A stretch of DNA of 45,161 nucleotides from assembly GCA_009379955.1 (NCBI GenBank), contig WHST01000045.1, positions 1-45,161 of the forward strand, given 5' to 3'. The DNA comes from Streptosporangiales bacterium (lineage in GTDB: Bacteria; Actinomycetota; Actinomycetes; Streptosporangiales; WHST01). Both the position numbers and the translations under genes were made by a program. How positions within the stretch are numbered: position 1 is the first letter of the stretch; the number at the start of each line of letters is the position of its first letter. The notes under the pieces were generated by a model. That model was not told the origin of the DNA. It saw nothing but the letters and a program-made list of their open reading frames with translations, and did not search any database. Shown piece by piece: positions 14,814-36,720 of the stretch.

Positions 14814-14878
14814 TATTCTGCTCCCTGGTCTGGTGCCGCATCTGATGCACCCCACCGGGGATGAGTTCGTGCCGCCTG

Positions 14879-16036: not shown

Positions 16037-16076
16037 GCCGCCATGTTCTCACGGTCGTCTCACGGTCGCGCGCGGC

Positions 16077-19298: not shown

Positions 19299-19898
19299 TC
19301 ACTCCTCGACGGCGACCTCGGTGAACGTTCCAGCGGTCGGGATGCGGACGTCGAGCGTCCGCACCCCGGCGCGGGGGGCACCGAACGTCGCGGTGAGCAG
19401 CTGGGTGGCGCCGGGCTCGATGACGGCACTGTCGAGGTCCGTCGAGCACACGCACTCGCCGCCGGACTCCGCAGGCGACGAGCGCAGCTCGGTGGCCGGG
19501 TCGTACAGCGTGACGCCACTGGCGTCGAACTCCCGCTCGCCGGCACTCAGGGTCCGGCCCAGGCTGGTCGGCTCGGTGGAACGGTTCCGCACCCCGAACT
19601 CGAGGACCGCCAGCTCACCGTCGCGCCGGAGCGCGTAGATCTCGACCCGGATCGCGGGACCGTCGGTCCTGCTGCCACCCACCCTCGTGTTCCGGTACGC
19701 GAGGGTGCGGGTGGGCGACGGTGAGGCGCTGCCGGTCTCGCTCGTGGCCGATGGCGACGGCGTGGTCGGAGACGGCGGCGTGGTCGGAGACGACGGCGAC
19801 GACCGCTGCCCCGGCTCGGGTCGATCGGGCGAACAGCCCGTGGTGGCGACGGCCACCAGGCATGCCACCACCGCCAGCAGAGCGGCACGACGACCCAT
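19299..19898 (-). CDS. Small lipoprotein with one C-x-C domain (type B)
   Basis: A 199-residue lipoprotein (lipobox T-T-G-C, Cys22), then a long Ser/Thr/Pro linker (about 25-65) and one type-B domain: R-V-E-I-Y-A-L-R-R-D-G, V-L-E-F-G-V-R-N, E-C-V-C-S at 148-152, L-L-T-A-T-F-G-A-P, and A-G-T-F-T-E-V. The linker is of the kind that spans the cell wall. GAGAGGGA precedes the ATG at 19898. It is divergent from the Tad operon with a 347-bp region between them. It is the shortest member of the five-gene lipoprotein family in this window. Confidence 0.82.
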   Translation of the reverse strand: MGRRAALLAVVACLVAVATTGCSPDRPEPGQRSSPSSPTTPPSPTTPSPSATSETGSASPSPTRTLAYRNTRVGGSRTDGPAIRVEIYALRRDGELAVLEFGVRNRSTEPTSLGRTLSAGEREFDASGVTLYDPATELRSSPAESGGECVCSTDLDSAVIEPGATQLLTATFGAPRAGVRTLDVRIPTAGTFTEVAVEE

Positions 19899-20245
19899 CA
19901 GCGTTCCCTCTCGTCGGCGCACACTGTCCGTAGCGACACGGATGGCCACCGCGTCGATGGCGAGATCGGGTCAGCAACGTACCGCGAGCACCATCGAGCA
20001 CGGCCCTGTTCCGGGTCGTATGGGCGTATAAGGCTGCATTCCACAGCAATAAGGAACTTGTGGACTGTTTCGCTATCTATCGGGCAGACATCCTTACGCG
20101 TACTACCGTCGGTACCCATCGGGACCCTCTGACGGCCACAATGAGGACCGGCGAGCACCGTCGGGATCCGGAGATCACGCACCGGTCACCGAGTGCCAGC
20201 GGTAGTTCGCGAGTCGGGAAGTGCCGGTCTCGGAAGGTGGGTCCG
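19899..20245. promoter_or_regulatory. 347-bp divergent regulatory region ahead of the Tad operon
   Basis: No gene is evident here. The stretch 20020-20100 is clearly AT-richer than the rest of the window. ATAAGG occurs at 20028-20033 and 20049-20054, 21 bases (two helical turns) apart, and a dyad (20033-20036/20044-20047) lies between them. TATCTAT near 20073-20079 could be a -10 for the plus strand. Another dyad (TCCGT/ACGGA) lies at 19926-19941. This is the likely control point for both the lipoprotein and pilus genes. Confidence 0.4.
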
Positions 20246-21178: not shown

Positions 21179-21188
21179 GTGATCATTG

Positions 21189-21917
21189 ATGAACCCCAGG
21201 CAGAGACGAGGCGCCGCCCTCATGATCGTCGCCACACTCGGCGCGATCGTGGTCTTCGTCACGGTGTTGAGCTACGTGAGCTCGGTGCGGGCCGAGGTCG
21301 GCGACCTGGTGACGGTGCTCAAGCTCAAGCAGGATGTGGCCGCCAACGGCGCCGTCACGAAGGCACAGGTCGAGGAGGCCGAGGTACCCAAGCGCTGGCT
21401 GAGCGGACCGTTCGTCTCGGACACGCGTGACCTCGACGGCAAGGTCGCGGTCAACGAGCTGAAGAAGGGCTCGTACCTGCAGACGAGCATGATCATCGAC
21501 GCGCCCTCCCTGCGCCCGGGACAACGGGAGATCGCCATCATGATCGACGCGGAGACCGGTGTCGCCGGCAAGGTCACGTCGGGATCGGTCGTCGACGTGT
21601 ACGCCACCTACACCGAGAGCACCGGTACCCGCAGCAAGTCGTGCGCCACCCAGTTGCTCTCCCACGCGCGCGTCATCGAGGTGGGCAGGCTGCGCACCGA
21701 GAAGGGCGAGGGCGGGAACGAGGATTCCCAGGCAGACCTGAGTCAGGTCGTGCCCGTCACCTTCGCGCTGAGCCAGCGGGACACCAAGCGGCTCGCGTGG
21801 GCCGAGGGCTACGCCACGAAGGTACGACTCGCCCTCATCGGTCCGGGAACCACGGAAGACGAACCGGATACCGGGGAAGTGTGCTCGATCGACCCGGTCA
21901 AGGAACAGACGCCATGA
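21189..21917 (+). CDS. cpaB: CpaB/RcpC-like Flp pilus assembly protein with SAF domain
   Basis: A 242-residue protein: an N-terminal membrane anchor (about 11-31), then a SAF-like domain (about 45-105: K-A-Q-V-E-E-A-E-V-P-K-R-W-L, L-K-K-G-S-Y-L-Q), then the RcpC-type beta domain with A-I-M-I-D-A-E-T-G-V-A-G and G-S-V-V-D-V-Y. In Gram-negative Tad systems RcpC/CpaB works with the outer-membrane secretin; in actinobacteria, which lack that secretin, the homologue probably acts on the outer face of the membrane. The ATG at 21189 is preceded by AGGTGA; a TTG one codon upstream is less likely. Confidence 0.85.
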   Translation: MNPRQRRGAALMIVATLGAIVVFVTVLSYVSSVRAEVGDLVTVLKLKQDVAANGAVTKAQVEEAEVPKRWLSGPFVSDTRDLDGKVAVNELKKGSYLQTSMIIDAPSLRPGQREIAIMIDAETGVAGKVTSGSVVDVYATYTESTGTRSKSCATQLLSHARVIEVGRLRTEKGEGGNEDSQADLSQVVPVTFALSQRDTKRLAWAEGYATKVRLALIGPGTTEDEPDTGEVCSIDPVKEQTP

Positions 21918-21939: not shown

Positions 21940-21981
21940 ATGACACCCGCGACCGTCGACGAACGGGAGGCGCACCGGTGA
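21940..21981 (+). CDS. Possible 13-residue leader ORF between cpaB and tadZ
   Basis: ATG at 21940 is preceded by GGAGG (21928-21932) at the ideal distance of seven bases. The frame ends in a TGA that overlaps the GTG of the tadZ-tadE gene (GTGA, 21978-21981). The arrangement would load ribosomes onto the fusion gene. A chance origin cannot be ruled out; tadZ also has its own GGGAGG at 21965-21970. Confidence 0.3.
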   Translation: MTPATVDEREAHR

Positions 21982-23558
21982 GCTACATGGTGCTGCTGTG
22001 CACGGCGGAAGAGACGACGAGCGGCCGGTTGCGTGCGCAGATCGCCGAGCTGCCCGACATCCACCTCAGCAGCGTCCTGGCCGGCTCGAGCAGTGTCGTG
22101 CCCTACCTCGCCGACAACGGCGGCATCGACTGCCTGCTCCTCGACGAGAGCTTCGGACCGCTGCCGCCGGCCGAGCTGATCCGCGAGGTCACGGGCCGCT
22201 ATCCGCACGTCGCGGTGATCATGCTGGTCGCCGAGGCGACCGCGGGCGTTCTCGGCTCGGCCATGGAGGCCGGTGCCCGCGGCGTCCTCGTCGCGAAGCC
22301 GTCGCTCGAGGACCTCGAGACCAAGATCAGCGGGGTCGCCGAATGGTCGCGCACGATGCGCCGGCACATCGAGGGCTACTCCACGGAGCAGTCGATGGCC
22401 GGCACCACCGGGCGCATCGTGGTGGTGGCAGGCAGCAAGGGCGGCACGGGCACCACGACCCTGGCGGTCCACCTCGCCCTGGCCGCGACGAGCGCCCGCA
22501 GATCGGTCTGCCTCGTCGACATGGACCTCCAGGCCGGCGACGTGCCGACCTATCTCGACATCACCCACCGCCGCAGCATCGTCGACCTCGCGGAGGCTGC
22601 GGACGAGATCAGCGGCACGGTGCTCGCCGACACGCTCTTCGCGCACCGCGCCGGGCCACACGTGCTCCTCGCGCCACGTGACGGCGAACGTGCCGAGGAC
22701 GTGTCGAGCACCGCCACCCGCCAGCTGCTCGGCAGCCTGCGGTCGCGGTACGACCTCGTCATCGTCGACTGCGGCGCCTACGTCACGGACGCCGCCGCCA
22801 TGGCCACCGAGATCGCCGACTTCGCCGTCATCACGGTCACCCCCGACATGCCCGCACTCCGTGGCGCCCGCCGGCTGGTGGAGATGTGGGAGCGCCTCCA
22901 GGTCCGCAAGCGCGACGACCTGGCCGTGGTCGTCAACCGGCACCACAGGCAGAGCGAGATCCAACCCGACTTCGTCCGCAAGGTCCTCGGCTTCCGCGTG
23001 CTCACGGCCACCGTGCCTTCGGTCTTCCGCGGCCTGGAGTCCGCGGCGAACACCGGCACCCCGTCCGAGGTCGAGAACCCCGCGTTCCGCAAGGCGATGG
23101 GTCGGATGTTGCGCGAGATCGGTGCGCTCCAGGGACCGCCGCACGGCGCGGTGCAGACGGTGAACGTGCCCGCTCCGGCACCGGCCGGCAAGGGCAAGCG
23201 CAAGAAGAAGACCAGGCCCAGGCAGGCGGGGCAGGCCACGATCGAGTTCGTCGCGATGCTCCCGTTCATCGCCATCCTGGTGATCGTGCTGTGGGAGTCG
23301 CTGCTGCTCGGCATGGCGATGATGACGGCCAGCCATGCGGCCAACGAAGGTGCCAGAGCCGCGGCGGTGGGGCTGGCACCCGACAAGGTCCGCGAGCGCG
23401 CCCACGAGCGCATGCCGGGTGACTGGTCGAAACGCTCCACGATCGACTACCGCGAGGGCGACGACAAGGTCACGGTGTCGCTGCGTGTGCCCGTCCTGAT
23501 GCCCCGCATCGAGGCCCCGTGGCACATGACGGCCTCGGCGGAGGTGGTGCACGAATGA
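21978..23558 (+). CDS. TadZ/CpaE-like ATPase fused to a TadE-like pseudopilin
   Basis: A 526-residue two-part protein. Residues 1-120 resemble a receiver-like domain without the full phospho-Asp set (D-C-L-L-L-D at 51-56). Residues 145-390 are a MinD/ParA-type ATPase with deviant Walker A G-S-K-G-G-T-G-T-T-T (152-161) and D-M-D-L-Q-A-G-D-V. A basic linker (K-G-K-R-K-K-K) leads to a TadE segment from about 416: G418 then Q-A-T-I-E-F and a membrane helix (423-445). TadZ localises Tad pili; TadE is a minor pseudopilin. The two are normally separate. The G|QATIEF site with Glu at +5 fits prepilin-peptidase cleavage that would release the ATPase. GTG start, GGGAGG seven bases upstream. Confidence 0.85.
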   Translation: MSYMVLLCTAEETTSGRLRAQIAELPDIHLSSVLAGSSSVVPYLADNGGIDCLLLDESFGPLPPAELIREVTGRYPHVAVIMLVAEATAGVLGSAMEAGARGVLVAKPSLEDLETKISGVAEWSRTMRRHIEGYSTEQSMAGTTGRIVVVAGSKGGTGTTTLAVHLALAATSARRSVCLVDMDLQAGDVPTYLDITHRRSIVDLAEAADEISGTVLADTLFAHRAGPHVLLAPRDGERAEDVSSTATRQLLGSLRSRYDLVIVDCGAYVTDAAAMATEIADFAVITVTPDMPALRGARRLVEMWERLQVRKRDDLAVVVNRHHRQSEIQPDFVRKVLGFRVLTATVPSVFRGLESAANTGTPSEVENPAFRKAMGRMLREIGALQGPPHGAVQTVNVPAPAPAGKGKRKKKTRPRQAGQATIEFVAMLPFIAILVIVLWESLLLGMAMMTASHAANEGARAAAVGLAPDKVRERAHERMPGDWSKRSTIDYREGDDKVTVSLRVPVLMPRIEAPWHMTASAEVVHE

Positions 23559-23917
23559 CGACGTCACGTCGGTATGCGCGGGGCTCACGCGGTCAGGCGA
23601 CGATCGAGACCGTCGCCTACCTGCCCCTGCTGTTCGCCATCTTCTTCACGGTCGTCGAGGTCTTCGCCTACTTCATGACCATGGAGCAGGTCGACAACGC
23701 CGCGCGGACCGGTGCGCGGGTGGAGAGCCAGGGCTTCAACGGGAGTGTGGCCGCCCGCAGGGCGTTGCCGGAGTCGGTCCGCAAGCAGGGATCCACGATC
23801 GTGGTCAACAGCGACGGCGTGACCGCGACGGCGACCGTCACCGGGCAGGTGCCGATCATCTTCAACGGACCGATCGACTGGAAGGTCACCCGTACCGTCC
23901 AGATGCCGGTGGGTTGA
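23555..23917 (+). CDS. TadE-like minor pseudopilin
   Basis: A 120-residue protein with a short basic leader, the processing site G13|Q-A-T-I-E-T (Glu at +5), and a single hydrophobic helix (Y-L-P-L-L-F-A-I-F-F-T-V-V-E-V). The C-terminal half is a small beta-rich domain outside the membrane. TadE proteins are processed by the prepilin peptidase and needed for pilus assembly. Its ATG overlaps the previous stop (ATGA) and GAGGTGG precedes it. It is the second TadE in a row, after the TadE part of the fusion. Confidence 0.88.
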   Translation: MTTSRRYARGSRGQATIETVAYLPLLFAIFFTVVEVFAYFMTMEQVDNAARTGARVESQGFNGSVAARRALPESVRKQGSTIVVNSDGVTATATVTGQVPIIFNGPIDWKVTRTVQMPVG

Positions 23918-23919
23918 CC

Positions 23920-25251
23920 ATGAGCCTCAAGGACCGCGTCGACAACGGCGACTCCCCCGCGGCGACCGACGAGTCCGTCGGGGTCGCGCACTGGCGCGAG
24001 CGCCTGCTCGACGAGATCGACTTCACCGAGCTCGCCGGGCTCGACGTGCCGCAGCGACGTGCCCGGCTGGAACGCGTCACCGGCCACATCGTCAGCCGCG
24101 AGGGCCCCGTCCTGTCGAACCGCGAGCGCGCGGCACTCATCCGCCGCATCGTCGACGAGGCCCTGGGGCTCGGCGTGCTCGAGCCGCTCCTCGCAGACGA
24201 GACGATCACCGAGATCATGGTCAACGGCCGCAACGACGTCTACATCGAGCGCAACGGCCTCATCCAGCGCATCGACACCGAGTTCACGAGCGACGAGCAG
24301 CTCTACCAGACCATCGACCGCATCGTGTCGCAGGTCAACCGCCGCGTCGACGAGTCGAGTCCGATGGTCGACGCGAGGCTGCCCACCGGTGAACGGGTCA
24401 ACGTCATCGTCCCGCCGCTCGCCCTGTCCGGGCCGACGCTGACCATCCGTCGCTTCCCCCGGCCGTACCCGATGGACGAGCTCGTCCGGCTGGGGACGAT
24501 CGACGTGCCGACCGCCGGCCTGCTCGCGGCCATGGTGCGCGCGCGGTTCAACGTCGTGATCTCCGGCGGCACGGGCACCGGCAAGACCACCTTCCTCAAC
24601 GCGCTGTCCGGGCTCATCCCCGAAGAGGAGCGCATCGTCACCATCGAGGACGCGGCGGAGCTCCAACTCCAGCAGGACCACGTGGTGCGGCTGGAGTCCA
24701 GACCGCCGAACGTCGAGGGCAAGGGAGCGATACCGATCCGCGAGCTGGTGCGCAACTCGCTGCGCATGCGCCCCGACCGGATCATCGTCGGCGAGGTCCG
24801 CGGTGCCGAGACGCTCGACATGCTGCAGGCGATGAACACCGGGCACGACGGCTCGCTCGTCACCGTGCACGCGAACTCGACGGATGACGCCATCTACCGA
24901 CTCGAGACCCTCGCGAGCATGAGCGAGGTCAACATCCCGTACGACGCGGTACGCGACCAGATCAACAGCGCGGTCCACGTCATCGTGCACCTCGACAGGG
25001 GGATCGACGGCAGCCGCAGGATCGTCGAGGTGGCCGGCATCGCGTCCCGCCGCAGGGAGAACTTCCAGCTCCAGACACTCCTGGAGTTCGAGCCGGAGCC
25101 CATGGGTCCCGAGCGGATCGTGCGCGGGGAGTTCGTCCACCGGCCGATCCCCCCGGCGATGGCCAAGCGCCTCACCTATGCCGGCGAGGCGGTGCCCGCG
25201 ACCTTCGGTGTGTCCTCCGTGGACGACCGCAACAAGCGGGAGGCCACGTGA
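23920..25251 (+). CDS. tadA: TadA/CpaF-type pilus assembly ATPase
   Basis: A 443-residue secretion-superfamily ATPase that powers pilus extension (and in some species retraction) from the cytoplasmic face. Walker A is G-G-T-G-T-G-K-T-T (216-224), the Asp box T-I-E-D-A-A-E (241-247), Walker B R-I-I-V-G-E-V-R-G (287-295) and the His box G-H-D-G-S-L-V-T-V-H-A-N-S (308-320). The N-terminal domain carries I-T-E-I-M-V-N-G, typical of CpaF. All key residues are intact. The ATG at 23920 is two codons after an alternative TTG. It overlaps the tadB start by four bases. Confidence 0.95.
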   Translation: MSLKDRVDNGDSPAATDESVGVAHWRERLLDEIDFTELAGLDVPQRRARLERVTGHIVSREGPVLSNRERAALIRRIVDEALGLGVLEPLLADETITEIMVNGRNDVYIERNGLIQRIDTEFTSDEQLYQTIDRIVSQVNRRVDESSPMVDARLPTGERVNVIVPPLALSGPTLTIRRFPRPYPMDELVRLGTIDVPTAGLLAAMVRARFNVVISGGTGTGKTTFLNALSGLIPEEERIVTIEDAAELQLQQDHVVRLESRPPNVEGKGAIPIRELVRNSLRMRPDRIIVGEVRGAETLDMLQAMNTGHDGSLVTVHANSTDDAIYRLETLASMSEVNIPYDAVRDQINSAVHVIVHLDRGIDGSRRIVEVAGIASRRRENFQLQTLLEFEPEPMGPERIVRGEFVHRPIPPAMAKRLTYAGEAVPATFGVSSVDDRNKREAT

Positions 25252-26180
25252 CGGGCAACGTCCTGCTCCCGATCGGTGCCATGGTCGTGGTTCTCGGCCT
25301 CGCCCTGCTGGGGGTGTGGCAGTACGGCAGGGGCCTCGACCAGAAGGGATCCCTGGCCGCACGCAACCCGCTCAGCGACGCCGAGCGCCGGGCGCGCCGG
25401 CCGATGGCGCGGCTCGACAAGGCGCTGGCCCGTACGGCACTCGGCCAGTCGGTCGGTCGGCGTATCGCGGCCGCGGGTGTCCAGGTCCGCGTCTCGACCT
25501 TCGTGATGACACTGTTCCTGGTGGCCGTCGGGGCCGTGGCGGCCGCGTGGCGCTGGCTCGCACCGTTGTTCGGCGTGGTCGCCGCCATCGTCGTCGTCTG
25601 GGTGTTCCTGCAGTACCTCCGCCAGATGGAGGAACGTCGCAAGGAGGCCTTCATCGGCCAGCTGCCGGAGCTCGCCCGGGTGCTCTCGAACGCCTTCTCC
25701 GCCGGCCTCGCCCTCCGCACGGCGGTCGAGATGGCCGCGGACGAGCTCGACGAGCCGGCACGCACCGAGCTCCAGATCACCGCGCACTCGCTGCGGCTCG
25801 GCCAGTCGACCGAGCAGGCACTCGCCGATCTCGGCGACCGGCTGCCGTCGCGGGAGCTGTCGGTCCTGGTGAGCACGCTCATCATCTCGTCCAGGGCGGG
25901 CGGTTCGATGGTCACGGCCCTGCGCAACCTGTCCAGCACGCTCGAAGCCCGCAAGGAGGTGCGTCGCGAGGTCAAGACGACCATGGCTCAGGCCGTGTAC
26001 ACCGGCTACCTGATCGGCGCGATGGGTGTCGGCATGCTGTTCCTGGTCAACTACATCATTCCGAACGGGCTCGCGACCATGACCTCCGATCCGGTCGGCC
26101 TGGTCATCCTCGTCATCAGCACGGCACTGTTCGCGACCGGCGTCGTGGTGGTCAACCGGATGAGCAGGATCGACCTGTGA
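25248..26180 (+). CDS. tadB: TadB-like inner-membrane platform protein
   Basis: A 310-residue type II secretion F-domain protein. Hydrophobic segments lie near residues 5-22, 85-105, 108-125, and two at the C-terminus (about 245-265 and 275-300). The T2SSF core includes Q-L-P-E-L-A-R-V-L-S-N-A-F-S-A-G-L-A-L and S-S-R-A-G-G-S-M-V-T-A-L-R-N-L. It forms the membrane platform moved by TadA. GTG start overlaps the tadA stop (GTGA), and its own stop touches the tadC start. Confidence 0.92.
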   Translation: MTGNVLLPIGAMVVVLGLALLGVWQYGRGLDQKGSLAARNPLSDAERRARRPMARLDKALARTALGQSVGRRIAAAGVQVRVSTFVMTLFLVAVGAVAAAWRWLAPLFGVVAAIVVVWVFLQYLRQMEERRKEAFIGQLPELARVLSNAFSAGLALRTAVEMAADELDEPARTELQITAHSLRLGQSTEQALADLGDRLPSRELSVLVSTLIISSRAGGSMVTALRNLSSTLEARKEVRREVKTTMAQAVYTGYLIGAMGVGMLFLVNYIIPNGLATMTSDPVGLVILVISTALFATGVVVVNRMSRIDL

Positions 26181-27097
26181 TGACCACGCTGCTCGTCCTC
26201 GGCTGCGCGGTGGGCGCGGCGCTCTGCACGGTGCTCGCGGCTCGCGGCTGGCTGCTGGTCACGACACAGCCATCGGTGCCGCGGTACTTCTCGATGTCCG
26301 AGCGCAGGCGACGAGCCGCCAGGCTGCCCAAGGACGAGAAGGGGCCGCTGAGCAAGATCGTCGAGTCGGTCGGGCGGCCCTTCGCCGGACTGCTGGGTTC
26401 CCTGCTCGGCCCCGAGCGCACCGAGCGCTACCGGCAACGGCTGGGGCGGTCGGGTCGCGCCGGTGCGGTGCCGGTCGAGGTCTACCTCGCGAGGAAGGCC
26501 GGCTCGGTCATCCTGTTCGGCCTCTTCGCGGTCGTCTTCTTCTTCGCCAGGCAGTGGTTCCTCGGCGTCGTCTTCCTGCTGATCGGGTGGTTCTGGCTCG
26601 ATCTCATGCTCTGGGCGTACGCCCGCAGGCGCGCCACCGAGATCGAGAAGGCGTTGCCCGACTTCCTCGACGTGCTGTCGGTGACGGTCAGTGCCGGTCT
26701 CGGCTTCCGCCGCGCGCTGTGGCGGGTGTGCGAGAGCATGCCCGGCCCGCTCGCGGAGGAGTTCACGCTCGCCCTCCAGCAGATGGACCTCGGCACCAGT
26801 CGCAGGGACGCGCTGCGGCAGATCAGGAGCCGCACGTCGTCGCCGACGCTGTCGCAGTTCCTGACCGCGATCCTGCAGGCCGAGGAGCTCGGTGCCCCGC
26901 TGTCGGATGCCCTCATCGAGATCAGCGTCGACATGCGGCGCAACACCTCGCAGGAGGCCCGGCGGCGCGCGGCCCGTACGGCGCCACGCATCCAGCTGGT
27001 GGTCACGTTCCTGATGGTGCCTGCCGCACTCATCCTGCTGCTCGGCGCCATCATCCTCTCGATGTCCCAGGGAGGAGGAGTCGGTGTTCTCGGTTAG
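26180..27097 (+). CDS. tadC: TadC-like inner-membrane platform protein
   Basis: A 305-residue second F-domain platform protein. Two central membrane segments (about 95-125) are followed by A-L-P-D-F-L-D-V-L-S-V-T-V-S-A-G-L-G-F-R-R-A-L and Q-A-E-E-L-G-A-P-L-S-D-A-L, and a hydrophobic C-terminus. It pairs with TadB. The ATG at 26180 overlaps the tadB stop by one base; a GTG one codon upstream is also possible. The 3' end overlaps the histidine kinase gene by 14 bases, and the GGAGGAGGAG inside its last codons serves the kinase. Confidence 0.92.
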   Translation: MTTLLVLGCAVGAALCTVLAARGWLLVTTQPSVPRYFSMSERRRRAARLPKDEKGPLSKIVESVGRPFAGLLGSLLGPERTERYRQRLGRSGRAGAVPVEVYLARKAGSVILFGLFAVVFFFARQWFLGVVFLLIGWFWLDLMLWAYARRRATEIEKALPDFLDVLSVTVSAGLGFRRALWRVCESMPGPLAEEFTLALQQMDLGTSRRDALRQIRSRTSSPTLSQFLTAILQAEELGAPLSDALIEISVDMRRNTSQEARRRAARTAPRIQLVVTFLMVPAALILLLGAIILSMSQGGGVGVLG

Positions 27098-28346
27098 CTC
27101 CTCCTACACCCTGCAACCCAGGGCGGCGCAGCTGTGCCGGCTGCTCCTGCGGGTACGGCTCGTCATCGCGCTGTTCGCCCTGCTGCTGCTGGTGACCCAC
27201 CCGCTGAGCGCGCGCTTCGTCGTCGCGTTCCTCGGCGCGTTCGTCACCTCGCTGCTCGCCTACGTGTTCTGGCGCCGCATCACCCAGGTACTTCAACGAC
27301 ACCCCATCCTCGCCGGCCTCGACGTCGTGGTCTCGTTCATCGTGCTCGGCCTCGGCGGATCGTCGACCCCGTTCCTGCTGCTCACCGTGATCACGTCGGC
27401 GATCGCGGGGCTTCTGTACCGGTGGGGAGGCGTGCTCTACATCTCCACGCTGCAGGTGATCTGCTACTTCACGGTCCTGTTCTTCCAACCGGGCTCGACC
27501 GAGATGTGGAACTTCCAGACCGTCGTCGGTCAGCCGTTGTACTACCCGCTCGCGGGGTTCCTCGGGGTGTGGGTCCGCCGACTGCTCGACGAGACCGCCT
27601 CGACCGACCAGCTGCGGCGGGAGGCGGAAGTCCTCGCGGCGGCGGCCGAGGAGCGGGCACGGCTGGCCCGCGAGATGCACGACTCGCTCGCGAAGACCGT
27701 CCGTGGCATCGAGTTCGCCGCGACCGCGCTGCCGCGATGGGTCGAGCGCGACCCGGAACGCGCCGGCACCGAGGCGCGGCGCATCGCGTCCGCCGCGGCC
27801 ATCGCGTCCAGGGAGGCCAGGGACCTACTGTCGGAGCTGCGGGCGGCCGCCGACGGCGTGGAGCGGCCCCTCGTGCCCACCCTGACGTCCCTCGTCACCG
27901 AGTGGTCGGCACGCACGGGCATCCCGACCGAGCTCAGCACCGCGAGCGACGTCGAGCTGCCCGCGCGCAACCGCTACGAGATGACGGCGACCCTCGCCGA
28001 GGCGCTCTCCAACATCGAACGTCACGCGGCGGCGTCCCGGGTCTCGGTGACGCTGGCACCCGTCGACGGCACGCTCCGCCTCGTCGTCACCGACGACGGG
28101 CGTGGCTTCGCCCTCGAACAACGAGACGAGCTTGTGCGGGAGGGCCACTACGGGCTCCTCGGCATGAGCGAGCGCGCCAGGCGCGCGGGCGGCGCCCTGA
28201 CGGTCGACTCGCATCCCGGTCAGGGCACGACGATCACGCTCTCGGTGCCGCTGCCGGACCCGACCTCCACCGCCCGCGGCCACGTCGATCCGTCGACACC
28301 GGCTCCACCCGTTCCATCCACCCACGAACCGGTCAAGGCACGGTGA
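27084..28346 (+). CDS. NarL-type sensor histidine kinase in the Tad operon
   Basis: A 420-residue kinase. The N-terminal half has about five to six membrane segments (residues 22-165) with little outside loop, suggesting it senses something in or near the membrane. The HisKA_3 dimer region has the phospho-acceptor His199 in R-E-M-H-D-S-L-A-K-T. The ATPase domain shows E-A-L-S-N-I-E-R-H-A (N box) and D-D-G-R-G-F (G box), with G-L-L-G-M-S-E-R-A after. A Pro/Thr-rich tail ends the protein. GTG start with a very strong GGAGGAGGAG. Its stop overlaps the response regulator start (GTGA), so the two form a pair. Confidence 0.93.
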   Translation: MFSVSSSYTLQPRAAQLCRLLLRVRLVIALFALLLLVTHPLSARFVVAFLGAFVTSLLAYVFWRRITQVLQRHPILAGLDVVVSFIVLGLGGSSTPFLLLTVITSAIAGLLYRWGGVLYISTLQVICYFTVLFFQPGSTEMWNFQTVVGQPLYYPLAGFLGVWVRRLLDETASTDQLRREAEVLAAAAEERARLAREMHDSLAKTVRGIEFAATALPRWVERDPERAGTEARRIASAAAIASREARDLLSELRAAADGVERPLVPTLTSLVTEWSARTGIPTELSTASDVELPARNRYEMTATLAEALSNIERHAAASRVSVTLAPVDGTLRLVVTDDGRGFALEQRDELVREGHYGLLGMSERARRAGGALTVDSHPGQGTTITLSVPLPDPTSTARGHVDPSTPAPPVPSTHEPVKAR

Positions 28347-29068
28347 CATCAGGCATGCTTCGCGTCATGGTCGTGGACGACAACCCGATCGTCCGATCCG
28401 GTCTGGTCTCGCTGCTGGAGGCGAGCGGTGAGGTCGAGATCGCGGCCGAGGCCACCGACGGCCGGCAGGCCGTCGATCTGGCGTCGACCTTCGACGACCT
28501 CGACCTCATCCTGCTCGACGTGCGCATGCCGGAGATGGACGGTGTCGAGGCGGTCAAGCAGCTGAGCGGGCGCTGCACCGTCGTCATGCTCACCAACACC
28601 GAGGACGCCTCGACCGTTCAGGCCGCGATCCGCAACGGGGCAAGCGGGTACCTCGTGCACGGCACCTTCGGCGTCGACGAGCTCCAGACCTACATCCGCT
28701 CCGCCGTCGCGGGTGCGAACCCACTCTCTCCGCCCGCCGCCGCAGCCGTCATGAGCGCTCTTCGCGAGTCTCCCGTCGCGACCGCCGCGCCGGCCGACGT
28801 CAGCTCCGCCGCGGCGATCGAGGCGATGCTCAGCTCGCGGGAGGCCGAGGTGATGAGCCTGATCACGCAGGGCAAGTCGAACAGCGAGATCGCCGCCGAC
28901 CTCTTCCTGAGCGAGAAGACGGTGAAGAACCATGTCAACCGGATCTACGCCAAGCTCGGCGTCGCGTCGCGAGGCGCCGCCATCGCACGATGGATCGGCA
29001 CCGACGTCGCTGCCGGAAGACCGCCGGAGGCAGGTAGCACTGCCGGCTCCGGGGGCCCAGGGACCTAG
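28343..29068 (+). CDS. NarL/LuxR-type response regulator in the Tad operon
   Basis: A 241-residue regulator. The receiver domain has D-D at 12-13 and the phospho-acceptor Asp59 in L-I-L-L-D-V-R-M-P-E-M-D-G. The C-terminal LuxR helix-turn-helix is L-S-S-R-E-A-E-V-M-S-L-I-T-Q-G-K-S-N then S-E-I-A-A-D-L-F-L-S-E-K-T-V-K-N-H. A glycine-rich tail follows. GTG at 28343 overlaps the kinase stop; ATG at 28355 is an alternative. The likely target is the pilin promoter just downstream (inference). Confidence 0.93.
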   Translation: MTSGMLRVMVVDDNPIVRSGLVSLLEASGEVEIAAEATDGRQAVDLASTFDDLDLILLDVRMPEMDGVEAVKQLSGRCTVVMLTNTEDASTVQAAIRNGASGYLVHGTFGVDELQTYIRSAVAGANPLSPPAAAAVMSALRESPVATAAPADVSSAAAIEAMLSSREAEVMSLITQGKSNSEIAADLFLSEKTVKNHVNRIYAKLGVASRGAAIARWIGTDVAAGRPPEAGSTAGSGGPGT

Positions 29069-29486: not shown

Positions 29487-30488
29487 GTGAAGCGGTACAA
29501 GCGCGGCGAGGAAGGCGGGGTCTACCCCGTCTTCCTCGTCGCGTTCATGGTCGTGATCGCCATGGCGGCGGTGCTGATGCACGTGGGCAAGGCCGGTGAC
29601 ATGCGCACCAGGGCGCAGACGGCCGCCGACGCCGCCGCACTCGGCGCGGTCGCCGAGATCCGCGACCGGGCTCTCGGCCTCCTCGTCCAGGGCATGATCC
29701 CCTGGGCCGGCTACAGCCCCGAGACCACCCCCGACGCGGCGCGCAGGTACGCCAAGCGCAACGACGCCACCGTTACCCACGTCGACCACCGCGGCATCTT
29801 CGCCAACTACGCTGTCGTCGACGTCCGCGGCGACGAGCGGCTGCAGGGGATCTTCGAGAAGTTCCGCGGCGGACGCGCCGAGGCCGACGCGATCGCCAAG
29901 GTCGACTTCCCCGAGTGCACCCCGTTCCCGCTGGCGGATCCGCTGGGCGAGAACCCGGCCGCGATCAGGGGACTCCTGTGCGACGGCACGTACGTGCCGA
30001 TCGGCTCGAGTCCCAAGACATGGATCCGCCTGTTCACCATCCGGCTCGTCGCGAAGGCTCCCAAGAAGGAGCCGCTCGCGATCAGCCCACTCGGCACCGG
30101 CCGGCAGGTCCCGTCATCCGCCGGCAGCGCGGACCTGTGCGCACAGGTCGGCTTCAACGCCGGTTTCCGGGAACGCCACCTGCTCATCACCGCCGTCGCC
30201 GTCGCCCTGGCCGAGTCGAGCTGCCGCCCGACCGCCCAGAACACCAACACCAACGGCACGGGCGACTTCGGGCTCTGGCAGATCAACAGCATCCACGGCT
30301 ATCCGCTGTCGTGCCTCTACAACGCCCAGTGCAACGCCAACGCCGCCTACCGCATCTACAGCGACAGCGGCAACTTCCTGCCCTGGTGCACCTACGAGAA
30401 ACCCGCCTGCGGCGGCGTCGGCAACGGGTCGTACCGGCAGCACATCACCGCTGCGACGGCGGCCGTCGATCGGCTCGGCAAGGCCTAG
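29487..30488 (+). CDS. TadG-like membrane-anchored protein with C-terminal lytic-transglycosylase domain
   Basis: A 333-residue protein with an N-terminal TadG-like part: helix at about 12-33, then G-D-M-R-T-R-A-Q-T-A-A-D-A-A-A-L-G-A, the classic TadE/G motif. A middle region (70-210) of unknown fold follows. The C-terminus (about 215-333) is a lysozyme-like SLT domain: A-L-A-E-S-S-C with catalytic Glu243, then G-D-F-G-L-W-Q-I-N-S-I-H-G-Y. Eight or more cysteines suggest disulfides outside the cell. It would cut peptidoglycan strands where the pilus passes the wall. GTG start, 24 bases after the pilin stop. Unlike the TadE proteins it lacks a clear G|xxxxE site. Confidence 0.88.
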   Translation: MKRYKRGEEGGVYPVFLVAFMVVIAMAAVLMHVGKAGDMRTRAQTAADAAALGAVAEIRDRALGLLVQGMIPWAGYSPETTPDAARRYAKRNDATVTHVDHRGIFANYAVVDVRGDERLQGIFEKFRGGRAEADAIAKVDFPECTPFPLADPLGENPAAIRGLLCDGTYVPIGSSPKTWIRLFTIRLVAKAPKKEPLAISPLGTGRQVPSSAGSADLCAQVGFNAGFRERHLLITAVAVALAESSCRPTAQNTNTNGTGDFGLWQINSIHGYPLSCLYNAQCNANAAYRIYSDSGNFLPWCTYEKPACGGVGNGSYRQHITAATAAVDRLGKA

Positions 30489-30549: not shown

Positions 30550-31158
30550 TCAGCCGATCGCGACGTCCTTGAACGTGCCGACGTGCGGGATGGCGACGTC
30601 CACGCTGGTCACGTCGTCCGGTGGGGCGGCGAAGGTGGCGTTGAGGTAGAGGGTCTGCCCGCCGGCGACACCACGCGTACCCGAGCACAGACAGTGCATG
30701 CCGGACGTGGGATGTGCGGGGTCGCGGTAGCGCGCGGTGAGGTGCTTCTTCTTGTTCTTGCCGTCGACGAGATAGACGCCGCTCACGTTCGACGCGCCAC
30801 CTCGGCCGAGGTCGTCACCGAAGGTGCCCAGCTCGTCGGTCTCGTTCTTCGCGCCGAAGTCGAGGGTGACGTACGCACCGTTGCGGCGGAGCTCGTAGAG
30901 GTGGAAGGTCCACTTGCCCCTGCCGCTCGACCCTGCGGCACCGACGGTCGCGGCCTTGCTCGCGATCGTCTTGCTCGGGGTGGGTATGCCGGTCGCCTGC
31001 GGAGCGGACGACGACGGAGTGGCGCTCGGGGCCGACGGAGTGGCCGGCGTCGTCGAGGACGTGCCACCACCGCCGCCCGACCCACCGCAACCGGCGAGCA
31101 GCAGGCTGCCACACACGAGCGCCACCACGCCGACCGCCAGCCGCTGCCCTCTCGCCAT
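30550..31158 (-). CDS. Small lipoprotein with one C-x-C domain (type B), partner of the OmpA lipoprotein
   Basis: A 202-residue lipoprotein (lipobox L-L-A-G-C, Cys24), a glycine- then Ser/Pro/Thr-rich linker (25-65), and one type-B domain: F-H-L-Y-E-L-R-R-N-G, T-L-D-F-G-A-K-N, H-C-L-C-S at 155-159, G-Q-T-L-Y-L-N-A-T-F-A-A-P and V-G-T-F-K-D-V. The ribosome-binding site AGGTGAGG overlaps the stop of the upstream OmpA lipoprotein gene, so both are one operon. Together they match the single 542-residue protein at 13185-14813. It converges on the transglycosylase gene. Confidence 0.85.
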   Translation of the reverse strand: MARGQRLAVGVVALVCGSLLLAGCGGSGGGGGTSSTTPATPSAPSATPSSSAPQATGIPTPSKTIASKAATVGAAGSSGRGKWTFHLYELRRNGAYVTLDFGAKNETDELGTFGDDLGRGGASNVSGVYLVDGKNKKKHLTARYRDPAHPTSGMHCLCSGTRGVAGGQTLYLNATFAAPPDDVTSVDVAIPHVGTFKDVAIG

Positions 31159-31163
31159 GACCC

Positions 31164-32309
31164 TCACCTGCGGTAGACGATCTCGACTCGGCGGTTCAGC
31201 GCCCGGCCCTCGGGGTTGTCGCTGCCCTTGACCGTGTTGGCGGCGACCGGGTCCTTCTCTCCGTAACCCTTGGCGGTCAACGTGATCCCCGTACCCGAGA
31301 GCAGCGGACCGAGCTCCTTGCGCACGGCATCGGCACGCCGCTTCGACAGCGACAGGTTGTAGGAGTCGGATCCCTTGCTGTCGGTGTAGCCGCGGACCTC
31401 GACCGGCCCGCTCGCGTTCTTGCGCAGGATCGCGGCGGCCTCGGCGATGCGTGACCTCGCCTTGCCGGTCAGCGTCGCCTTGTCGAAGGCGAACAGCACG
31501 TCGGCGGCGAGGGTGACCTTGCCCTTCTCCTCGCGCACCGACAGGTCGATGTTGGCGGTCTCGGCCGAGATGTCGACGACAGGGGCCTTCGCGGCCGGTG
31601 CCGTGGAGTGCGGCTGTGCCACGAGGACGGCCGGCATCGTCTGACCGGGCTCGGGAGTGGGGAGCGGCGTGGCCGGCGGCGCCCCGTCGGTGATCGGGAC
31701 GTCGCGGAACAGGCCGAACGTGGGCAGGTAGACGCTCATCGTCGACACGTCGACTGCCGGAACGGCGTAGGTCGCCGAGACCAGGGTGGTCATGCCCGTA
31801 CCGAACTTGGGGTTGGTCGAGCACAGGCACTTGTTGTCCGCGTCACGGGCGACGAGATACGCCTTGCCCGCCTTCATGTCGAGGAGGTTCATGCCGGTCG
31901 ACTCGTTGAGCGACGGGTCCTGGTCCTCGAGGTCGCTCGGCGCGCTGAGCAGGAAGGTCATGCCCCCGACGAATCCCGCGGGTGCGTCGCCGGCCACCCG
32001 CAACCCCACCTGGAGCTGCGCGTTCTCACCGTCTCGGTAGATGCCGTAGACCGATGCGACCAGGTACGTGCTCGCCGCCGGAAACGCCGAGCCTGCCGTG
32101 TCCTCGTACGGGACCTGTGCCACGCGCTCGGCGACCGGCTGCCGCTGTCCGTCCGGGGTGGCGGTGTTCGACGCGGGCGAGGAGCTCTGCGGCGCAGAGC
32201 TCGACGGTGACGGGTCGTCACCACCACCGAACAGGCCACAAGCGCTGACGCTGACGGCAGCGCCGAGCACGGCAGCCGTCCTGATCGTCCTGCGCACGCG
32301 GATACCCAT
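31164..32309 (-). CDS. OmpA-family lipoprotein with one C-x-C domain (A-OmpA architecture)
   Basis: A 381-residue lipoprotein (lipobox S-V-S-A-C, Cys24). Domain A spans about 75-210 (V-A-S-V-Y-G-I-Y-R, K-C-L-C-S at 160-164, F-G-L-F-R-D-V-P-I). The linker K-A-P-V-V-D-I-S leads to an OmpA domain (262-381) with L-F-A-F-D-K, G-Y-T-D-S-K-G-S and conserved Asp310 and Arg325, the residues that grip peptidoglycan in this family. Residues 1-380 align with the 542-residue paralogue without net length change. OmpA domains on actinobacterial lipoproteins should tie the membrane surface to the wall. It heads an operon with the type-B lipoprotein five bases downstream. Confidence 0.9.
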   Translation of the reverse strand: MGIRVRRTIRTAAVLGAAVSVSACGLFGGGDDPSPSSSAPQSSSPASNTATPDGQRQPVAERVAQVPYEDTAGSAFPAASTYLVASVYGIYRDGENAQLQVGLRVAGDAPAGFVGGMTFLLSAPSDLEDQDPSLNESTGMNLLDMKAGKAYLVARDADNKCLCSTNPKFGTGMTTLVSATYAVPAVDVSTMSVYLPTFGLFRDVPITDGAPPATPLPTPEPGQTMPAVLVAQPHSTAPAAKAPVVDISAETANIDLSVREEKGKVTLAADVLFAFDKATLTGKARSRIAEAAAILRKNASGPVEVRGYTDSKGSDSYNLSLSKRRADAVRKELGPLLSGTGITLTAKGYGEKDPVAANTVKGSDNPEGRALNRRVEIVYRR

Positions 32310-32966: not shown

Positions 32967-34445
32967 ATGGTGGGATCGGCGAGATGGCGCAATGCGCGGC
33001 GCAACCGTCAACGGGGGGCCGCGACTGTCGAGTATCTCGCCGTCCTGCTCATTCTCGCGTCCTCGCTCTCCGTCGGCCTCGTCACCGGGCTCGCCAAGGG
33101 CGCGCTCGTCGACCAGGTGAACTTCGCGCTGTGCAAGAGCATGGTGAAGGCCGTCCGCGTCCTCGGCGTCGAGGTCGAGAACACGTGCGTCGCGCCGATG
33201 CCGAAGAACATGCCGCCGTGCGTGACGTACAAGCAGGACCGCCTGTTGGGCGCCAACGGCACGTTCCGCTTCATCCGCGGCGAGCTGACCGGCAAGGACA
33301 CGATCGTCGACCTCGTCGACCCGGTGACGGGCGACGAGTCGGCCCTCGTCTTCCTGAGCAACGAGGCCGGCGTCGGGCTCGAGTACAACGACAGCGTGTC
33401 CAAGGGCAAGTTCACCAGCGCGATGGAGAGCAGGGGTCTGTCGCCCCAGGGGAAGCTCATGCTGCAGGGCGGCACCGGCGTCGTGTACGAGTTCGACTCG
33501 CACGAGGACGCGCAGAACTTCCTCGACTCGCGCCGCGGCAACCTGTTCACCCGCGGGCTCGGCGTCATCACCGGCGGCAAGGCCGACGCGCTCTTCGACG
33601 GCGCCCGCAACCTCTTCAACGACATCACCGGGAACGACGACGACGATGCTCCGACTCCGTCGGGCCTCACCGCCGATCTCGCCATCCAGGCCGAGGCCGG
33701 GCTCAGCTACGAGACCGGCACCCAGAGCCAGACGAACGGCGCGAGCTTCCGCCTCGATGCGACCGCGAACGGCGAGGCGCGCGGGCAGTTCCGCTACAAC
33801 TTCGACGGTACGTCCCAGATCGAGGTGCGCTTCGAGGGCGAGGTCGGCCTGGAGGGCGGCGTCGGCGCGAACGAGCACCTCAAGGACCAGATCCCCCTGC
33901 TCGGCGACCTGAGCGTGACCGGGGGCGGCAACCTCGCCGGCGCGGTCGGCTACCGGCTCCGGTTCGACAAGCACGGCAACCCGACGCAGTTCGTGCTCAC
34001 CACCGAGTCCGGCGGCGGCCTCCAGTGGAAGGCCGGCGCCAACCGCGGCCACGCCGGCGGCCAGGACGGCGAGCTGACGGTCAACACGTACACGCTCGAC
34101 CTGACCAACCCGGAGAACATGGACGCCTTCGCGGACTCGTTCCCGGCGCTCGCGGCGGGTCAGCTCGCGAGCCCGATCTCGCCCGTCGCCATCCTCACGA
34201 CCGACAACCCGATCTCGCGGCGGCTGAAGGAGAACAGCGTCCAGTACGAGCAGGTGTACGACACCGAGGGCGACATGCTCGGCGTCGACTCACCGGACAG
34301 CGCGAACGAGAAGGGCCTGAAGATCAAGGGCGTCGGGATCGGCTTCAACGACGAGACCGCCAAGCGGACCCTCAGGACCGCCCGCTACATCGACCACAGC
34401 CAGCCCGGCTCGACCTGGCAGAATCTCGCCAAATGCGAGGGTTGA
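32967..34445 (+). CDS. Flp-like pilin head fused to a large extracellular domain
   Basis: A 492-residue protein. Residues 1-71 look like a whole Flp pilin: basic leader, G17|A-A-T-V-E-Y (Glu at +5), hydrophobic helix (24-43), then K-G-A-L-V-D-Q-V and L-G-V-E-V-E, matching the major pilin (29191-29463) almost end to end. A cysteine-bearing joint (N-T-C, P-P-C-V-T-Y) leads to about 420 residues of new sequence: a mixed part to 230 (F-L-S-N-E-A-G-V-G-L-E), an acidic hinge (N-D-D-D-D-A-P-T-P), then glycine-rich beta repeats (E-V-R-F-E-G-E-V-G-L-E-G-G-V-G). It is most easily read as a tip or side adhesin carried by the pilus. It lies 2.5 kb past the main operon and overlaps the next lipoprotein gene by 13 bases. 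Confidence 0.85.
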   Translation: MVGSARWRNARRNRQRGAATVEYLAVLLILASSLSVGLVTGLAKGALVDQVNFALCKSMVKAVRVLGVEVENTCVAPMPKNMPPCVTYKQDRLLGANGTFRFIRGELTGKDTIVDLVDPVTGDESALVFLSNEAGVGLEYNDSVSKGKFTSAMESRGLSPQGKLMLQGGTGVVYEFDSHEDAQNFLDSRRGNLFTRGLGVITGGKADALFDGARNLFNDITGNDDDDAPTPSGLTADLAIQAEAGLSYETGTQSQTNGASFRLDATANGEARGQFRYNFDGTSQIEVRFEGEVGLEGGVGANEHLKDQIPLLGDLSVTGGGNLAGAVGYRLRFDKHGNPTQFVLTTESGGGLQWKAGANRGHAGGQDGELTVNTYTLDLTNPENMDAFADSFPALAAGQLASPISPVAILTTDNPISRRLKENSVQYEQVYDTEGDMLGVDSPDSANEKGLKIKGVGIGFNDETAKRTLRTARYIDHSQPGSTWQNLAKCEG

Positions 34446-35059
34446 CGAGACGGGATCGAGGCAGTGGCCCACGCGGCACCGGGGCGCTGCGTACGGCCGG
34501 CGCCCTCGTGCTGCTGCTGGCCGTGGTCGCCGGCTGCCGCGGCGGTGAAGGGCCCGAGGCGTCGCCGTCGCCCACCGTCACGCCGCTGCCGGGCAGCGTC
34601 CAGGTCAGGGACTTCAGCTTCGTCCCGCCGGACGGCCTGACCAAGGTCGGGGAGCGCAGCAAGCAACAGAACACCAACGCCAGCTACGAGATGGTCGGCA
34701 CGGCCAAACCACCGATGTCGCCGCCACGGTTCGACGTCTTCGTGGAGAAGGGCGACGTCGGCTCGGCGAAGGTCCGCGCGGCGGCGATCGTCGACCTGGC
34801 AAACCTCCAGCTCGACGACGCGAAGATCGTGCGGAACGAGCGCGTCAAGGTGCCCGGCGCCGTCGACGCGCGACTGATCGAGATCACGTTCGTCTGCGGG
34901 GGTACTTCCGGCAAGGCGAAGATCCCGTGCCGGCAGTTCGAGGTGCTCGTCCAGACGGCGCAGAAGCCGCAGTACGGCCTGCGCTACGGCATGCCGCAGA
35001 AGCATTACGACAAGGCCGCCGTCGACGCGCTGACCGACTCCCTGCGGGTCATCGCCTGA
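34433..35059 (+). CDS. Lipoprotein coupled to the pilin-fusion gene
   Basis: A 208-residue lipoprotein: basic N-terminus, hydrophobic core and lipobox V-V-A-G-C. A short Ser/Pro/Thr linker follows, then a domain of about 160 residues starting F-S-F-V-P-P-D-G-L, with I-E-I-T-F-V-C-G-G-T-S and I-P-C-R-Q-F-E-V-L (two cysteines). The overall pattern resembles small surface lipoproteins of the LpqN/PsbP-like kind, but that is only a weak likeness. It has no good ribosome-binding site and starts inside the end of the pilin-fusion gene, so its translation depends on that gene. A partner or chaperone role is inferred. Confidence 0.75.
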   Translation: MRGLTRRDRGSGPRGTGALRTAGALVLLLAVVAGCRGGEGPEASPSPTVTPLPGSVQVRDFSFVPPDGLTKVGERSKQQNTNASYEMVGTAKPPMSPPRFDVFVEKGDVGSAKVRAAAIVDLANLQLDDAKIVRNERVKVPGAVDARLIEITFVCGGTSGKAKIPCRQFEVLVQTAQKPQYGLRYGMPQKHYDKAAVDALTDSLRVIA

Positions 35060-36057: not shown

Positions 36058-36720
36058 TCAGTTGACGAGGATCGCGATCAACGCACCCGCCAGCATGAAC
36101 GGCCCGAACGGGATCGCCGTCTTCCTGGTACCCCGCCTGCTGATGACCAGCGCGAGGGCGAAGAGCCCGCCGAGCAACACACCGTAGAACGTGCCGGCGA
36201 AGCACGCCCCGGCCCCCAGCCAGCCGAGGTAGATGCCGAGGAGGCCGGCGAGCTTCACGTCACCCCACCCGAAGGCGCCGGGACCGATCAGGCCGCTGAG
36301 CAGGAACAGCAGGGCGTACAGCACCCACAGCACGGCCATGCCGACCACGGCGGTGAGCAGGGACCACCAGCCCTCGAAGAACGCGGCGCCGGCGAGGAGC
36401 GCGAGCGCGATCGGGTAGGACGGCAGGGTCAGCCGGTCGGGCAGCCGGTACTCGACCACGTCGATCGCGGCGAGTGCCACACCGACGACGGCGAAATAGA
36501 GGTAGGCGGGCAGTGCCGGGGTGAGACCGAACCGCAGGGTGAACGCGACGAACGCCCCGGCGCACGCGAGCGGCACGAGCACGTCGCGGGGCCCGGTGAC
36601 CGCGGGCCGCCACGCGGCTCGCAGCGACCGCCCGGCGATCCTCGCCGCCACGAGAACGCCGGCCACCAGTCCCGCGAGACCGGCCAGCACGGGCCACATG
36701 TACGTCAGCACCGTCGCCAC
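36058..36720 (-). CDS. A24-type prepilin peptidase
   Basis: About 220 residues with seven to eight membrane helices. The two catalytic aspartates of the A24 family are Asp87 ([12 protein letters not shown]) and Asp154 in the G-x-G-D motif G-W-G-D-V-K-L. It lacks the cytoplasmic zinc/methylase domain of PilD, as usual for Tad systems. It should cut the leaders of the Flp pilin, the pilin-fusion, and the TadE proteins after Gly. GTG at 36720 has AGGAGAG too close; GTG at 36711 has better spacing and may be the true start. It is divergent from vdh. Confidence 0.92.

Follow-up and report, generated by a model that had tools for sequence, protein, structure and literature searches.

Tad (type IVc, T4c) pili with large minor pilins at their tips have been described in Myxococcus (PMC12075869), and the Caulobacter protein CpaL, which carries a large domain, has been predicted to be a minor pilin located at the tip (PMC12607857). 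ARC (CD38-like) polymorphic toxins are linked to 'Flp pilins' in a single passing sentence of the available portion of another study (PMC12605009), which was the only published hint of Flp-headed toxins that we found among open-licence literature. The words Flp, Tad and pilin are absent from the available text of a 2012 catalogue of polymorphic toxin trafficking (PMC3482391). Here, we describe a gene in a 45,161-nucleotide contig (WHST01000045.1, referred to as the window) of a Streptosporangiales bacterium, a soil-type actinomycete with a 6.6 Mb genome. The gene lies in a tad locus and encodes a 492-residue protein, referred to as the giant pilin, in which a Flp-type head is joined to a large ectodomain. 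An earlier note, made from the DNA alone, had proposed this fusion and suggested that the protein could be built into the Flp fibre or cap it.

A Flp-type head on a conserved ectodomain

Residues 10-71 of the giant pilin align with residues 27-90 of the major Flp pilin encoded in the same window (40% identity, with a single two-residue gap), and the two proteins have the landmarks G-x-A-T-x-E-Y, K-G-x-L-V-D and L-G-x-x-V-E in common. The Smith-Waterman score of the head against Flp was 119. We compared this score with those of 2,000 shuffled sequences in which composition was preserved separately in the leader, motif, hydrophobic and following blocks; the maximum was 73 and none of the shuffles reached 119. 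A search of the whole genome with the Flp pilin as the query recovered the giant pilin gene with an E-value of 3.6e-8. The head claimed in the earlier note is thus upheld over the length of the mature pilin, as is its fusion, within one open frame, to an ectodomain of approximately 420 residues. The acidic hinge described in the note is present as the stretch GNDDDDAPTP, and the remainder of the protein is rich in glycine and in strands, as had been claimed.

The N-terminus has the features of a class III leader (G/xxxxE with an aromatic residue at +6, followed by a hydrophobic helix). The residue at +5 of the predicted cut site is glutamate in the giant pilin and in 20/23 aligned members of its family, and glutamine in the other three. 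The giant pilin has no match to the TadE or Tad families of Pfam. As the head is Flp-type rather than TadE- or TadG-type, we describe the protein as a variant and do not file it as an orthologue of KilN or CpaL. DUF4244, a family related to Flp_Fap, is matched weakly by three of eight relatives and by the window Flp. The head profile had just two matches within the window genome, the Flp pilin and the giant pilin, and no Flp-headed toxin was detected. A weak third Flp-like match (C202, E = 0.11) was rejected on inspection, as the locus has no Flp-headed gene.

The ectodomain returned only noise in sequence searches of Pfam, NCBIfam and PDB, which revealed no toxin family, evident catalytic motif or vWA family, and no known non-pilus family that closely resembles the protein in its entirety. 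Three full-length homologues with 28-30% identity were identified by a protein search of 60 relatives, and a profile search of the order identified close members in eight genomes. Homology to a second subfamily extends across the full protein (hhalign probability 99.7%, E = 4e-27). Members also occur outside the order and the class, with long matches in about 15 of 396 genomes of the phylum (including the window genome). An alignment scan of the genome contig collection retrieved only two relatives, and a scan of plasmids retrieved none. Judged from these alignments, the giant pilin is a member of an unnamed and undescribed actinobacterial family that is present in several lineages.

Gly17, Cys74, Cys85 and Cys490 are invariant in a 23-row alignment of the family, and four cysteines are conserved in position in all 23 members. 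In mature-protein numbering, these cysteines are found near residues 35-43, 43-57 and 56-73, with the fourth no more than eight residues from the C-terminus in every member. The natural inference from this pattern is that there are two disulfides, one within the neck and one linking the C-terminus back to the neck. The C-terminus is conserved around its invariant cysteine, and the whole length is kept across distant lineages, with no variable C-terminal toxin part. A single locus in relatives can hold multiple divergent copies. In comparisons of related genomes, sequence divergence of the giant pilin keeps step with that of core pilus proteins (50%, versus 48% for TadG and 47% for Flp; 69% versus 69% in a second comparison), which supports a pilus component and not a faster-evolving arms-race toxin.

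Association with the tad locus and a partner lipoprotein

The association with tad was assessed in 19 genomes of the order which had no match in the single-sequence search and which were picked before their state in the family-profile search was known. Orthologous TadA (66-71% identity) was found in nine of these genomes. Matches to the head or ectodomain profiles were found in exactly these nine genomes and in none of the other ten (Fisher p = 1/92,378, about 1e-5, a value that ignores shared ancestry). Eight of the nine TadA-positive genomes have ectodomain-length copies, while the ninth (G005) has head matches only. Both other genomes of the window genus have neither orthologous TadA nor the giant pilin family, and G003 has both. 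In most carriers the giant pilin gene is 7-24 kb from tadA, and the conserved gene order is CpaB, CpaE, TadE, TadA, TadB, TadC, histidine kinase, Flp, TadG, OmpA, (Flp-headed wall hydrolase), giant pilin. The tie to the tad locus implied by the earlier note is therefore borne out as strict co-occurrence in this sample. In the window, a full actinobacterial tad set from RcpC/CpaB to TadG, including the histidine kinase and response regulator, lies upstream of the gene (Table 1).

The gene that follows, which overlaps the giant pilin gene by 13 bases as the note had claimed, encodes a lipoprotein. A homologue follows six of the seven other close members of the giant pilin family. A lipoprotein is immediately downstream in about 21 of 35 members (a count made partly by eye), and the neighbours also frequently include small membrane proteins. 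Strong, long matches to the lipoprotein were found in eight of 346 genomes of the order, seven of which have an intact giant pilin, while the eighth (G659) has a degraded copy. The proposed partnership thus holds as a recurrent adjacency. In G659, the intact partner lipoprotein adjoins the broken giant pilin copy (L064:9084-9774).

None of seven lipoprotein homologues matched a Pfam family, including the named families of the PsbP/Mog1/LpqN fold and immunity families. The structural model of the lipoprotein is modest (predicted local distance difference test score, pLDDT, 54; predicted template modelling score, pTM, 0.51), and its best matches all have one fold, that of PsbP, Mog1, DcrB, LpqN, MTC28 and the Eag chaperones EagT6 and SciW. 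The best Foldseek E-value was 1e-4, and VIA Z scores for this pLDDT 54 model against EagT6, PsbP, DcrB, LpqN and MTC28 were about 11-13 over about 115-140 residues. The type VI secretion system (T6SS) immunity proteins Tli4/TplEi and Tsi3 scored lower (Z 7-9). Eag proteins bind the transmembrane segments of T6SS toxins (PDB 6xrf, 6xrr), and a chaperone role for the lipoprotein is therefore suggested by its modelled fold.

Table 1. Features of the giant pilin gene and the surrounding tad locus, in window coordinates.
Feature	Position	Strand	Basis or remark
RcpC/CpaB	21186..21917	+	Family scan
CpaE/TadZ-type ATPase fused in frame to TadE-like domain	21978..23558	+	
TadE-like pseudopilin	23519..23917	+	Family scan
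TadA/CpaF ATPase	23914..25251	+	Family scan and genome comparisons
TadB (T2SSF)	25248..26180	+	Family scan
TadC (T2SSF)	26183..27097	+	Family scan
Sensor histidine kinase	27084..28346	+	Family scan
Response regulator, start approximate	28346..29068	+	Sequence inspection
Major Flp pilin, 90 amino acids	29191..29463	+	DUF4244, weak
TadG-like protein with C-terminal lysozyme-like SLT_3 domain	29487..30488	+	
OmpA-domain lipoprotein	31164..32309	-	Homologue in nearly all close-relative loci
Small multi-pass membrane protein, 138 amino acids	32464..32880	+	Weak likeness to those beside other members; DUF3792 E = 0.006, below cut-off
Giant Flp-headed pilin-like protein, 492 amino acids	32967..34445	+	Open frame; full-length alignment with 22 relatives
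Basic class III leader, residues 1-17, predicted cut after Gly17	32967..33017	+	Sequence G/AATVEY
Flp-like helical head, residues 18-71	33018..33179	+	Alignment to Flp pilin
Ectodomain, residues 72-492 (about 420 residues)	33180..34442	+	Cys74, Cys85 and Cys490 invariant in 23 rows; Cys56 in neck positionally kept
Partner lipoprotein, 208 amino acids, predicted PsbP/Mog1/DcrB/Eag-like fold	34433..35059	+	Lipobox VAGC; 13-base overlap with giant pilin gene
A24 prepilin peptidase	36058..36720	-	Peptidase_A24, E = 1.3e-11; 1.6 kb past giant pilin gene end

TadG and the giant pilin are separated by the OmpA-domain lipoprotein, on the minus strand, and the small membrane protein. In relatives, a Flp-headed protein of about 226 residues sits between OmpA and the giant pilin. 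This protein is an NlpC/P60 hydrolase in L209, with NlpC/P60 also found in L006 and L007 and a weak SLT match in L033. The wall hydrolase of relatives is a separate Flp-headed NlpC/P60 or SLT-like protein, whereas in the window an SLT_3 domain is carried by TadG, which suggests a swap of one function. The fused CpaE/TadZ gene is one uninterrupted frame that joins a cytoplasmic ATPase to a TadE-like prepilin (GQATIEFVAM at about 23229). Five related lipoprotein-like genes, all on the minus strand (13185-15770, 14879-16048, 19299-19970, 30550-31842 and 31164-32309), have in common a repeated domain in which a CLCS motif is conserved and a T/F-F-x-x-V-P/A strand comes last, and two of them apparently have an OmpA domain.

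Other cargo on the same head

The earlier note had proposed a search for the same head on other ectodomains, and such proteins were found, including polymorphic toxins and wall hydrolases. Flp-type heads were detected in 154 of 396 actinobacterial genomes, many of them on short, pilin-sized frames. Among the long Flp-headed proteins are some that carry pretoxin-HINT together with Tox-REase-3, Toxin-deaminase, Colicin_D or Ntox24. Further cargo includes RHS repeats, calpain, Abhydrolase_8, a possible metallopeptidase, a Tox-REase-5-like end, NlpC/P60 and SLT. One genome (G011) has 15 head-profile matches, mostly on separate contigs.

Ten loci with Flp-headed toxins (L007:7812-9425, L028:17807-19903, L032:4275-5954, L190, L192, L195, L205, L207, L098 and L113) have PT-HINT, nuclease, deaminase, Colicin_D or Ntox24 domains, with RHS-like repeats recognised by inspection in L098 and L113, and several have Imm7/SUKH genes. 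The genes downstream of Flp-headed toxins include Imm7 (E = 1e-34) and SUKH-1 immunity proteins, which indicates that several of the Flp-headed proteins are proper polymorphic toxin systems. Two related genes of about 170-178 codons (L197:2427-2939 and L199:7640-8173) each directly follow a Flp-headed HINT toxin, and the two toxins have similar C-termini. This gene pair probably represents an undescribed immunity family.

A variable C-terminal toxin domain, by which polymorphic toxins are recognised, is present in these sister proteins but not in the giant pilin. The 'toxin carrier' role that the note had listed for the giant pilin therefore stands only in part. The same head does carry polymorphic toxins in relatives, but the ectodomain in the window has no toxin family or catalytic motif, so the term fits the sister proteins and not the window protein. 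The occurrence of the same plug on antibacterial-type toxins suggests, at the level of sequence, that bulky proteins can be exposed on, or delivered by, pili of this kind.

Interpretation and comparison with known systems

On balance, we favour the view that the giant pilin is a modular minor pilin of the Tad pilus, probably located at the tip and aided by the lipoprotein. The head homology, the conserved cysteines, the linkage to tad and the recurrent lipoprotein are the observations behind this view, and cleavage, disulfide pairing, chaperoning, tip position and contact function are its predicted parts. The A24 peptidase encoded nearby would cut the Flp-type head after Gly17, and the processed head helix would be inserted in the membrane. 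The ectodomain would fold outside, with its C-terminal cysteine presumably tied by a disulfide to the pilin neck, while the membrane-anchored lipoprotein from the overlapping gene may hold or chaperone it. The Tad machine would then incorporate the giant pilin into the fibre. Its size makes the tip the most likely position, and the ectodomain could act there as a contact or adaptor surface.

Several results weigh against this view. The gene often has no recognisable tad genes beside it in distant carriers, and the presence of several copies in the genomes of relatives would also be consistent with a substrate for display, as opposed to one subunit at the tip. A structure prediction of the ectodomain with three input sequences was too poor for fold assignment (pLDDT 40.6). 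A Foldseek search with this model returned beta clamps, VDAC and others, and these matches were discarded, as they were of low probability and none had E < 0.001. Flp_Fap (PF04964) has no match anywhere in the genome and so misses the giant pilin head; it misses the major Flp alike, which makes this model uninformative for the lineage.

The strict co-occurrence with tad would also be expected if the protein were a pseudopilin or assembly factor that belongs to the Tad machine, is anchored in the membrane and is processed like a pilin but stays outside the fibre, with the ectodomain, OmpA lipoprotein and wall hydrolase helping the pilus to cross the thick wall. OmpA-domain lipoproteins and NlpC/P60 or SLT hydrolases are indeed constant neighbours. 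However, the copy number varies, and the small share of genomes with long matches (about 15/396) compared with those with Flp-type heads (154/396) indicates that the protein is not a core Tad factor in the phylum; we regard this explanation as unlikely. It is much less probable still that the giant pilin is a surface protein in its own right with no role in the pilus, and that its class III head is just a generic export or membrane-anchor signal. The copies found outside tad loci in distant carriers and the scattered Flp-headed proteins of some genomes are consistent with such a signal, but among the 19 sampled genomes the family is present in exactly those that have the tad ATPase, and the head resembles Flp across the whole mature pilin, beyond the signal.

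The gene overlap is of the kind seen in effector-immunity pairs, which raises the possibility of an effector that acts on the envelope. The ectodomain, exported on a Flp head, could be such an effector (a beta-rich protein that binds a target or forms pores, for instance), with the overlapping lipoprotein as an immunity protein for the producer's surface. True Flp-headed toxins beside relatives (some with immunity genes), the several divergent copies per locus and the weaker resemblance of the lipoprotein fold to Tli4/TplEi and Tsi3 (Z 7-9) are compatible with this. We nevertheless consider it improbable, as distant lineages keep the protein in full and show no variable toxin part at its C-terminus, no catalytic motif or toxin family was found, the divergence equals that of core pilus proteins, unlike an arms race, and several carriers have no adjoining lipoprotein. 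The possibility that the window protein itself is a toxin was considered and ranked below the minor pilin.

Taking the giant pilin as a minor pilin, its link to toxin delivery is plausible from the sequence comparisons, and in some species toxins may be displayed or delivered by the pilus beside the conserved giant pilin. More tentatively, and as a reading that we hold to be less likely than not, we propose that the actinobacterial Tad/Flp machine may also be a toxin-delivery device, in which toxins with immunity genes would be loaded via Flp heads, and the giant pilin and its PsbP/Eag-like lipoprotein would form a dedicated non-toxic tip or adaptor. If monoderm Tad pili do carry toxins in this way, this would be a contact-weapon route that is absent from the available text of the 2012 catalogue (PMC3482391). 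What is new here is an undescribed actinobacterial giant pilin family tied to Tad pili, with its anatomy (four conserved cysteines and a lipoprotein partner), and a modular scheme in which one pilin head bears a conserved surface domain, wall hydrolases or polymorphic toxins.

The ARC-toxin study resembles our results in having a Flp-type pilin domain as a toxin carrier, but its available passage does not treat a conserved non-toxic ectodomain, a lipoprotein or dependence on tad (PMC12605009). The lipoprotein resembles Eag chaperones, DcrB, PsbP, LpqN and MTC28 in predicted fold, with no sequence match, and differs from them in being an exported lipoprotein. The type IVa (T4a) pilins PilB and PilC of Streptococcus sanguinis (PMC8179133, PMC9934059), as far as they are described in PMC10191384, similarly have a cargo domain grafted on a monoderm pilin, but they belong to another pilus class and carry known adhesive domains. 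The vWA minor pilins CpaL/TadG (PMC12607857) combine a Tad-linked pilin head with a large module and a predicted tip location, whereas the giant pilin has no vWA family that we could find, has a Flp-type head and is accompanied by a separate TadG in the same locus. The 'Tips' of the Kil Tad pilus of Myxococcus xanthus (KilL/M/N, PMC12075869), compared here by description and not by sequence, are likewise large minor pilins of a Tad machine with extra C-terminal domains and predicted disulfides; they exist in several interchangeable versions and are linked to contact killing, which we count as a further likeness. The Kil Tips differ in forming three-protein complexes with small Flp-type adapters in a diderm, whereas the giant pilin comes from an actinobacterium, has its large domain fused directly to a Flp-type head and is accompanied by a partner lipoprotein.
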